Assembly: GCA_030653435.1 (NCBI GenBank)
Contig: JAURZI010000079.1
Span: 1 to 64,000, forward strand
From: Methylovulum sp.
GTDB taxonomy: Bacteria; Pseudomonadota; Gammaproteobacteria; Methylococcales; Methylomonadaceae
Direction of reading: 5' to 3'
DNA length: 64,000 nt
Part shown: in pieces, positions 682 through 53,159 of the stretch
Position numbering within the stretch: the first letter of the stretch is position 1
Layout of the letters: each line of letters begins with the position of its first letter
The notes under the pieces: model-generated
Databases searched by the model: none
What the model saw: only the letters and a program-made list of their open reading frames with translations
What the model was told of the DNA's origin: nothing
Translations under genes and position numbers: made by a program

Positions 682-1233
682 ATGTCACGCTACCGACGCG
701 CCGACCTACCCGGCGCAACCTATTTTTTTACGGTGGTAACCTATCGTCGTCGTCCCATCCTGTGTGACGCACCGGTGCGGGCGGCGTTGCGTTCGGCAAT
801 CAAAACCGTGCAATCACGCCATCCCTTCATCATCGATGCGTGGGTTTTGTTGCCTGATCACTTGCATTGCCTCTGGACACTGCCGCCCGGCGATGCTAAT
901 TACCCCATGCGCTGGGGACAAATCAAACGGCTGGTTTCACAAACCTGCATCGAACAATACCATCGACCGGAATGGCTAACGGCATCTAAAACCAAACACC
1001 GTGAATCCACTTTCTGGCAACGGCGCTATTGGGAACATTGCATCACGGCCGATACAGACTATTCACATCATCGCGATTACATTGCCATCAATCCGTTAAA
1101 ACATGGCCTGGTGCCGCGTGTGCGGGATTGGCCTTATTCAACATTCCATCGTGATGTTACCCACGGCATTTACCCGCTGGATTGGGCAGGCTCCACCGAA
1201 TTGCCTGATTTGCCCTGCGGTGAACCCGAATAA
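682..1233 (+). CDS. REP-associated tyrosine transposase (RAYT, Y1 family)
   Basis: 183 aa, a usual length for RAYTs of the IS200/IS605-like Y1 transposase superfamily. Visible hallmarks are the N-terminal YRRADLPGATYFFTVVTYRR, the HUH-type metal site DHLHCLW around residue 60, the YWEH segment near residue 115, and the catalytic-tyrosine helix YIAINPLKHGLV near residue 133 with the family's WPYSTF after it. Family members nick and join single-stranded REP palindromes and are thought to spread them. Here the gene is surrounded by four copies of one palindromic repeat, fitting that role. There are no IS ends tight against the gene, so it looks like a domesticated single-copy RAYT. Confidence 0.93.
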   Translation: MSRYRRADLPGATYFFTVVTYRRRPILCDAPVRAALRSAIKTVQSRHPFIIDAWVLLPDHLHCLWTLPPGDANYPMRWGQIKRLVSQTCIEQYHRPEWLTASKTKHRESTFWQRRYWEHCITADTDYSHHRDYIAINPLKHGLVPRVRDWPYSTFHRDVTHGIYPLDWAGSTELPDLPCGEPE

Positions 1234-35268: not shown

Positions 35269-35306
35269 GGGTAACCGTAAGGGCAATATAGCCCTTACGG
35301 TTACCC
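35269..35306 (-). terminator. Perfect 16-bp hairpin after aspS
   Basis: GGGTAACCGTAAGGGC (35269-35284) and GCCCTTACGGTTACCC (35291-35306) pair perfectly across a 6-nt loop, between the aspS stop and the Nudix gene on the same strand. Very stable; no T run follows. Confidence 0.65.
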
Positions 35307-50817: not shown

Positions 50818-51636
50818 ATGACAACTTTATCTGACCGCTTGACTACCGATTGTTTGTCTATATTACAGCTCACTGATTTGCATATTCTTGCCAATCAGGA
50901 TGCGACATTGCTGGGTGTTAATACCGCCTATTATTTCGATGCGGTGTTAGCGGCGGCTTTTGCCCAACACCGGAATTTTGATTTAATCCTGCTTACCGGC
51001 GATCTAGCCCAAGATCCGGTCGTTGCAAGTTACCGGCATATTTTGGACAAGCTGCAAGCACTTGCGATACCTTGTATTTGTCTGCCCGGCAATCACGATG
51101 ACAGTGCCTTGATGCAACAGGTTTTCAATACCGGCTTGATAAGCTGTCGCAAGCAGCTAATTTTGAAAGGGTGGCAAATCATCAGTCTGGACAGTCAGGT
51201 GCCGGGTTCGGATGGCGGGTATCTGCATGAGGCGGAATTAACGTTTCTGGCAGACTGCCTGTGTAGCCATGCTGGACAATACACGTTAGTTGCCGTGCAC
51301 CATCATTGCCTGAAGACGGATAGCCTGTGGATGGATAAGATGATGATAGAAAACAGCGAGCAGTTTTTAGCGGTTGCCAGTCAACACCCTCAGGTCAAGC
51401 TGGTCGTCAATGGTCATATCCATCAAATAATGGACAAGGCTATAGCGGGTGTGCGCGTATTAGGCACACCCTCCACCTGTTTTCAGTTTAAGCCCGGAAG
51501 TCGGGAGTTTGAGCTCGATACCACATCGCCAGCGTACCGATATCTGCAATTGCATGCGGATGGACGGATTGAAACCGATGTGTTCCGGTTGCCTGGGCAA
51601 TTGACGGGGCTGTTGACAGACACCGAAGGTTACTAA
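50818..51636 (+). CDS. cpdA: 3',5'-cAMP phosphodiesterase CpdA-type
   Basis: 272 aa from [20 protein letters not shown] at 50818; a GTG/ATG at 50791 would overlap argA. Calcineurin-like metal motifs in order: [36 protein letters not shown] and [10 protein letters not shown]. Class III cAMP phosphodiesterase in proteobacteria; a different cyclic substrate cannot be excluded. Ends overlapping the stop of rppH from the other strand. Confidence 0.9.
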
Positions 51637-52166
51637 GCCTTTATTTTTTTGATTTTTTTTGCCGGATAACCATCGGCCTTAACGGGTATGCCATTAGTCG
51701 CCAGGATGACGCCCAGCTCACTCATCGCTTTTTGGTAGACCTTACGTTTGAAATACACGACATCGTTAAGCGGCTCCCAATAATCCACCCAGCGCCAGCT
51801 GTCAAATTCAGGCTTGGCGCAATGGTCAAAACGGACATTGGAGTCTGCCGTTATCAAGCGCAAGATATACCATATTTGTTTTTGGCCTATACATAACGGC
51901 AATGAATTCTTGCGTATATAGCGATCCGGCAACTGGTATTTTAACCAGTAGCGAGTTCGACCCAGTATTTGTACGTGCTGCTTTTGTAGCCCGGTTTCTT
52001 CCCACAATTCTCGATACATCGCTGCTTCAGGGTCTTCATTCTGATTGATTCCTCCTTGCGGGAACTGCCATGCGTTCACGCCCATCCGTTTTGCCCAAAA
52101 CACGCGACCCTCGTCATTGCAAAGGATGATCCCGACATTGGGCCGGTATCCTTTAGAGTCTATCAT
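51633..52166 (-). CDS. rppH: RNA pyrophosphohydrolase RppH
   Basis: 177 aa. [40 protein letters not shown] then RELWEETGL (Nudix box), [10 protein letters not shown]. Removes pyrophosphate from 5'-triphosphorylated mRNA, starting RNase E decay. Basic Lys-rich tail KKIKKIKA. Confidence 0.95.
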
Positions 52167-52288
52167 GTTAAAACCTGCGTTTATCTTAGCCTTATCTTAA
52201 ATCTGCGTGTGATATAGTGTGATGAGGCAAGTTAGTTTGTAATGCTTGCATTGTTCCATAAAAAAAGTGCTTATGCCATAGTATTAAT

Positions 52289-52348
52289 TGTTTCATAAGT
52301 AATCGCACCTTAATTTTCAAAATTGTTCCGGCGATTACTTATGAAACA
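52289..52348. repeat. Perfect 18-bp palindrome pair with 24-nt loop
   Basis: TGTTTCATAAGTAATCGC (52289-52306) and its exact reverse complement (52331-52348). First of two long hairpins in the gap between rppH and the HAD gene. No T run, no ORF. Confidence 0.85.
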
Positions 52349-52367
52349 CACATAACTTGTTAAGTGA

Positions 52368-52442
52368 ATGTATGTGTGTCCCATAAGTTCGCGCACTGTA
52401 ACCTCATCCTACTGTGCGCGAACTTATGGGACACACATACAT
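52368..52442. repeat. Perfect 29-bp palindrome pair with 17-nt loop
   Basis: The arm 52368-52396 (begins ATGTATGTGTGTCCCATAAG, ends TTCGCGCAC) is matched exactly by 52414-52442. It shares a TGT-YCATAAGT word with the first palindrome, so the two look like members of one family. It ends 30 bp before the HAD start codon and would fold strongly in the leader of that gene. Confidence 0.85.
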
Positions 52443-52472
52443 AGCCTTTTAATTACGTCAGACAGGATTAGC

Positions 52473-53159
52473 ATGAGTTTAGCCATTTTTGATTTGGATA
52501 ATACCCTGATAGGGGATGATAGTGACTATTTGTGGGGGCAATACCTTGTCGATCAGGGTGTAGTCGATAAGCTCCAGTATGAGGCTGCAAACGCAAAGTT
52601 TTATGAGTCATACAAGCAAGGCACGCTCGACATTAATGAGTTTTTAAGATTTTCCTTGCAGCCGCTGGCTGAAAATGACACCCAACAACTCTACCAGTGG
52701 CGGGCGCAATTTATTAAGGACATCATTACGCCGCTGTTGCTCAAGCCAGCACAACAGTTGATTGATAAACACAGGGCGCAAGGCGATACCTTGCTGGTCA
52801 TCACGGCTACTAACCGTTTTGTGACCGAGCCTATCGTCCAGTTGTACGGCATAGCCCATTTGTTGGCAACAACGCCAGAGTTTGTTGATGGCAAATTCAC
52901 CGGCGCGGTGACCGGGATACCCTGTTTTCAGCAAGGTAAAGTGGAATTGTTGGCAAACTGGCTGGAAACTTCAGGCGAAACAATGGGCGGCAGCTGGTTT
53001 TATAGCGATTCGCACAATGATTTGCCCTTGCTAAAGCGCGTAGATCATCCTGTTGCCGTCGATCCTGATGACAAACTGGCAGAATTCGCCAAAACGGCCG
53101 GTTGGCCGGTCATCAGCTTAAGAACTGATGAGTGTCCTATTCAGCATTTCCAAAAATAA
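52473..53159 (+). CDS. HAD-IB family phosphatase (SerB-like)
   Basis: 228 aa from MSLAIFDLDNTLIGDDSDYL at 52473; the frame open to 52368 is the palindrome and not coding. Motif I DLDNT, motif II VITATNRF, motif III/IV YSDSHNDLPLL match the TIGR01490-type HAD-IB group that includes phosphoserine phosphatase-like enzymes. Substrate unknown. Often near rppH in related genomes. Confidence 0.85.
   Translation: MSLAIFDLDNTLIGDDSDYLWGQYLVDQGVVDKLQYEAANAKFYESYKQGTLDINEFLRFSLQPLAENDTQQLYQWRAQFIKDIITPLLLKPAQQLIDKHRAQGDTLLVITATNRFVTEPIVQLYGIAHLLATTPEFVDGKFTGAVTGIPCFQQGKVELLANWLETSGETMGGSWFYSDSHNDLPLLKRVDHPVAVDPDDKLAEFAKTAGWPVISLRTDECPIQHFQK

Follow-up and report, generated by a model that had tools for sequence, protein, structure and literature searches.

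The window, that is, the entire stretch of 64,000 nucleotides of Methylovulum sp. DNA analysed here, carries two adjacent long palindromes between two genes and raises the question of what process could have placed them there and kept their arms perfect. They are built as the preliminary description had it: hairpin A has arms of 18 bp (52289-52306 and 52331-52348) around a 24-nt loop and hairpin B has arms of 29 bp (52368-52396 and 52414-52442) around a 17-nt loop, both without a mismatch and spaced by 19 bp. They are the two longest of the six perfect stems of at least 12 bp (loop of up to 40) in the window, and when 20 sequences were generated from a first-order Markov model of the window, no stem exceeded 12 bp, a length reached once. 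Another of the perfect stems, at 35269-35306, has 16 bp and a loop of 6 nt. Our analysis points, with a probability of about 0.9, to a non-autonomous MITE of the IS630 type that inserts at TA.

Limits of the element and its dispersed copies

Comparison with homologous full copies, and with the same site lacking the element in the relative G001 and others, delimits a 158-bp unit that contains both hairpins. The features at the locus are as follows:

51633..52166, minus strand: flanking NUDIX gene, RppH-like (PF00293)
52282..52439, plus strand: entire element (158 bp, non-autonomous), made up of hairpin A, the linker and hairpin B
52282..52283, strand not assigned: left TA, a probable copy of the duplicated target, judged from relatives, G001 among them, in which the site measures 2 bp, with TA itself seen at other loci only
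52282..52354, plus strand: hairpin A, including its perfect arms
52307..52330, plus strand: hairpin A loop, 24 nt
52355..52370, plus strand: linker between the hairpins, 16 nt here and present in the 29 aligned full copies
52371..52439, plus strand: hairpin B within the element, which the palindrome first described overshoots by 3 bases on each side
52397..52413, plus strand: hairpin B loop between the perfect arms, 17 nt
52438..52439, strand not assigned: right TA, a probable copy of the duplicated target on the same basis as the left one
52473..53159, plus strand: flanking HAD hydrolase gene (PF12710)

The element starts 7 bases upstream of the 52289 at which it was first described to begin, and no pairing joins the outer ends of hairpin A in this copy, which read TATTAAT on the left and CACATA on the right. 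The bases 52440-52442 (CAT) belong to the flanking DNA, since they are present in the element-free G001. Pfam matches agree with the original placement of the palindromes between rppH, here an RppH-like NUDIX gene, and a HAD gene. No terminator-like site was found in 52100-52600, and there is one promoter-like site near the element against 1.3 expected.

The genome itself (G000; 4.66 Mb, 161 contigs) holds nine full or partial copies, a count that excludes matches of 13-20 bases, judged to be chance:

Window: full copy with both hairpins
C160 at 31364: full copy with both hairpins
C49 at 128921 (C49a): full copy with both hairpins
C121 at 24518: full copy with both hairpins
C123 at 129287: partial, hairpin A
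C49 at 10993: partial, A plus the linker, with B reduced to a trace
C87 at 36656: partial, A with the linker
C120 at 39174: partial, hairpin B
C126 at 43024: partial, B with an A-like right end

Outside this count stands a lone arm, TATTAATTGTCCCATAAGTTC, at C121:14215, possibly the remnant of a lost element. Seven of 61 genomes, the present one included, match at E≤0.001, with additional copies in the relatives G006, G010 and G019. With the model R1, at least 12 of 237 family genomes match at E≤0.01 (up to 12 candidates scored per genome), and two-hairpin copies occur outside the genus too (G023, G175). A 171-base query found no match in plasmids and phages; the viral contig L136, entertained as a further copy, proved to have a 22-base pattern match only, in a stretch without such a hairpin. 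Two copies in different species (G006:C42 57211 and G019:C1 3944713) have identical flanking words, so at least one insertion may predate the split of the species. An origin by local inverted duplication without any mobile history, the reading that would have remained had the genome search found no other copy, has nothing in its favour beyond the palindromes themselves; it is contradicted by the other copies, which occupy unrelated loci and have related loops and linkers, and its probability is negligible.

Twenty-nine full copies with hairpin A, linker and hairpin B were aligned along their whole length, further full copies from the family search standing outside this alignment. They measure 158-172 bp; together with the nine copies in the genome itself, they make up a short, transposase-free, multicopy element of the kind expected for an IS630-derived MITE. 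Stem words divide them into two subfamilies, one mostly with AATCGC and CGCGCAC and the other with GCTTGC and CTTGCGCAG, and their outer ends vary among TATTAATTG, TATGTGTG, TATTACAAT and TATTAATTTT. The left end is TA in 26 of the 29 copies, with start words taken from a hand-made list; the TA at the right end of all 29 is no test, because right ends were chosen by patterns ending in TA. One copy in G006 (C19b) retains TATTAATA where hairpin B would be. Two long-palindrome hairpins per unit, joined by a constant linker and with loops in both orientations, are a less usual arrangement for a MITE.

Insertion sites and the neighboring genes

For seven of the nine own copies a relative could be aligned across the site, and the cleanest comparisons with relatives that lack the copy indicate a 2-bp target. 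At the window site, CCATAG-[TA...TA]-CATAGCC stands against CCATAG-CG-CATAGCC in G001; five of the six relatives have two bases there, CG or TG (G001, G010, G003, G008 and G016, the last four compared by eye), and G011 has five. TA was seen in none of these six, so that only the 2-bp size fits at this site. Elsewhere TA itself was recovered: at C49a in two of three sequences (G010 and G008; CC stands there in an own-genome paralogue), at C120 in the single relative aligned (G010), at C121 in one of six (G003; the other five have CA or GA, and the net size is two bases throughout) and at C123 in one of 16 (G011; the other 15 are mostly diverged and gapped and show no TA at the site, which G003 lacks). 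The comparisons at C87 and C126 were not clean, and for C160 and the second C49 copy no spanning match was found in the relatives. Of the seven own loci that could be compared in this way, four show TA, two of them in a minority of relatives. Judged from these alignments, insertion at TA with duplication of the target, as expected of an IS630-derived MITE, is the simplest account of the element-free sites.

Of 34 copies, none falls within an ORF of at least 110 aa, though this test is partly circular. The copy at C121:24518-24678 (L039:2519-2679) truncates a gene for an Fe/Mn superoxide dismutase (PF02777): the own ORF runs for 243 aa and stops within the element, and in relatives the reading frame continues through the site with the C-terminus of the dismutase. 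C49a lies between a histidine kinase, whose last residues are encoded by the element, and a response regulator, and the neighbors of C123 are genes for a glutamine amidotransferase and for histidine biosynthesis. In all, 25 ORFs flank the nine own copies, of which 16 match Pfam families and nine match none.

These neighborhoods bear on the idea that the palindromes are sites for a tyrosine recombinase or for integron-type recombination. Paired palindromes with common words could be read in this way, and an inversion of their loops (see below) could equally be a site-specific inversion. However, no transposase or recombinase family appears among the Pfam matches of the 25 flanking ORFs, contrary to the earlier suggestion that copies might border such genes; the anatomy of the sites also lends recombinase sites no support, and the dispersed insertions with their empty counterparts fit duplication of a TA target. 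We therefore regard this explanation as very improbable.

Matching ends on IS630-family elements

The earlier conjecture that the palindromes are transposon ends, and that they form one family, is borne out by both hairpins bearing an IS630-type terminal repeat and by the dispersal of the pair as one element. IS630-family elements of about 1.09 kb in genomes of the same family have ends, TATTAATCGT..CATAAGTT, that match the hairpin arms. The end pattern ATTAATNGTTNCATAAGTT, with one mismatch, occurs in 66 of 237 family genomes, and its reversed control never occurs more than once per strand in any genome; in several genomes the pattern lies close to contig ends, as longer repeats would. In G124 one pair of ends encloses a 337-aa gene for an IS630 transposase (NF033545, scoring 218 bits against a cut-off of 100, and PF13358). 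The element in G095 is whole and 1,093 bp long; that in G124 measures 1,094 bp, to the contig end. Altogether, six elements have matching ends on both sides of a transposase gene or its pieces (G124, G095, G169, G166, G137 and G130), and further single ends were found elsewhere, so that the terminal repeats are common to the short element and an IS630-family element. Among the six, the one-contig genome G169 has both ends beside a transposase gene of 74% identity, and G166, G137 and G130 have both ends beside transposase gene pieces. The right ends in G095, G169 and G166 read CAAAAG instead of CATAAG. Moreover, TATTAATCGTCCCATAAGTT, found in three G006 copies, is identical in its 20 bases to the start of IS ends that lie next to transposase sequence in G077, G137, G098 and G001, while the outer ends TATGTGTG and TATTACAAT occur on no IS among those listed.

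To see whether A corresponds to the left end of the IS and B to the right end, the hairpins were scored against 11 hand-picked IS ends over bases 19-30. Out of 12, the scores were 7.8 left versus 5.2 right for A of type I, 5.7 left versus 7.2 right for A of type II, 7.2 on both sides for B of type I, and 7.8 right versus 6.3 left for B of type II, giving no consistent assignment. From the end sequences, the IS630 transposase family is the probable mover of the element.

Transposase matches at E≤1e-20 were found in 28 of 237 genomes, many at only 24-45% identity, with none in G000, G006 or G019. A search of the genus at E≤1e-5 found matches in 8 of 20 genomes; among these only a piece of 34 aa in G001, at 74%, is close, and identity in the best-scoring matches is 39% and 34%. 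No intact cognate transposase was found in these 20 genomes, the IS630 matches in the own genome are distant or fragmentary, and G006, rich in copies, gave no match to DDE_3 at E≤0.001. The helper transposase seems to have been lost, or to have gone unassembled, where the element is now common; its absence from the own genome is no bar to the MITE reading, because past mobilization needs none now. A scan of 30 genus IS630 loci among the matches listed for the four arm motifs (≤4 mismatches) gave one weak match, in L208, judged to be chance. G019 has IS630 genes with 284-aa open frames at 13 places, and the ends studied here are absent from the four of these loci that were scanned.

A different mover is proposed by the comparison with REP/REPIN-type palindromes, which would be mobilized by a Y1 tyrosine transposase (RAYT/IS200 type). 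Single hairpins do occur, and the own genome has eight matches to PF01797, one of them in the window. Yet none of the four arm motifs (≤4 mismatches) is present at the loci of these eight matches, so that adjacency to a RAYT is not seen, and both the TA at the insertion sites and the IS630-like ends run against this reading, which we consider exceedingly improbable. The PF01797 match in the window, at 718-1083 (plus strand), lies in a 195-aa open frame, and a weaker one is at C160:16892; no arm motif of the element was found in either locus.

Arm correction, loop inversion and related elements

Arms resemble their own partners more than those of other copies: in hairpin A the mismatches, of 18 positions, are 0.59 with the own partner arm versus 2.22 with other copies, and in hairpin B, of 20 positions, 1.38 versus 4.30. 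The arm pairs are perfect over the compared positions in 18 of 29 copies for A and in 10 of 29 for B. Changes on both sides are seen at 21 of 42 pairs, several of the double changes being confined to one copy; 129 cells are doubly changed versus 46.3 in shuffles, with none of 500 shuffles as high, and the count of further pair types is less striking (10 of 500 shuffles). With the window copy and one G010 copy as the reference for orientation, the A loop is inverted in one of the 29 aligned copies and the B loop in 13, two of which (G014, G023) are weak, with low scores both ways. The B loop is found in both orientations within each of G000, G006, G010 and G019. Template switching is described as homogenizing palindrome arms and inverting their spacers (PMC8604942, PMC8794818).

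In the mechanism that these patterns suggest, an IS630-type transposase would have moved the element into TA sites, duplicating the TA; template switching between the arms during replication probably keeps them perfect and would also flip the loops; and the copies with one hairpin could be explained by deletion between direct repeats. Of the earlier proposal that perfect arms signify recent origin or selection, the recent origin fits the absence of copies from relatives; for the perfection of the arms, we infer that correction from arm to arm is a better explanation than age alone. Selection on the DNA ends may also contribute. In a rather unlikely elaboration, the MITE would be modular and many-ended: the transposase could use each palindromic end as a pair of ends in itself, making A, B or A+B mobile, and the arms would be rebuilt and the loops flipped by hairpin-end processing in the course of transposition as well as by ordinary replication.

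Strong pairing and covariation, together with very stable folds, could alternatively mean a structured RNA or an RNase III substrate in untranslated regions, perfect through selection on the transcript. Both genes in the window point away from the element, which may therefore belong to the 5′ region of one or the other, and the Correia elements of Neisseria bind RNase III (PMC2649163). Against this, the own-genome sites that were read are empty in relatives and loop inversion is a DNA event. Further, the non-Watson-Crick cells comprise 23 G-T and 13 A-C, or 15 and 12 without one column (8 G-T); with so little wobble bias, they hardly point to selection acting on a single RNA strand. Rfam returned 14 matches up to E 1, all below the gathering score (13 microRNA models and one viral element). 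This explanation is quite improbable, and the element may still have a secondary effect on transcripts.

Returning to the IS630-type MITE, several systems invite comparison. RUP of Streptococcus pneumoniae (107 bp, with 9-bp terminal repeats), for which IS630-Spn1 is the proposed mover, is likewise a small repeat with TA at its target and terminal repeats like those of an IS630-family element (PMC2229807); unlike it, the present element is 158-172 bp long, has two separate long palindromes with a linker and resides in methanotrophs. The Correia/NEMIS elements of Neisseria resemble it in a long form of about 155 bp, in TA ends and often a TA target (PMC2229807, PMC2649163) and, by published description, in alternative end sequences and in ends that are symmetric or asymmetric, whereas in them the repeat at one end pairs with that at the other, without two separate hairpins. 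CIR of Caulobacter and Brucella, by its description in the review, is similar in layout, with two long inverted repeats, a linker and TA termini; it is about 110 bp long, is described with a GANTC motif and has its target duplication marked as unknown there (PMC2229807). The IS630 elements of the same family (L268, L293 and L331) share the ends given above, or close variants, and the TA at the boundary; they differ in encoding a transposase and in size (L268, 1,093 bp; L293, 1,094 bp). With a mode of life like RUP, a layout like CIR and exchangeable ends like Correia, the element is therefore classed as a variant IS630-type MITE. A search of literature on methanotroph repeats, MITEs and IS630, made at the level of titles and with subscription papers mostly outside it, gave no title about this element.

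Within this family, arm correction and loop inversion can be counted across palindromes that are naturally related, which could allow template switching at bacterial palindromes to be measured without laboratory reporters. The family also carries a caution: covariation in a hairpin is not necessarily evidence of an RNA under selection. In these methanotrophs, such a repeat family can truncate genes and mislead ORF callers. The mechanically called ORF of the HAD gene (52368-53159, plus strand) has its ATG at 52368 inside the element and runs in frame into the gene; the true start is likely 52473, because the element-free relatives share that start region, and gene callers may mis-start the HAD gene at the window element.
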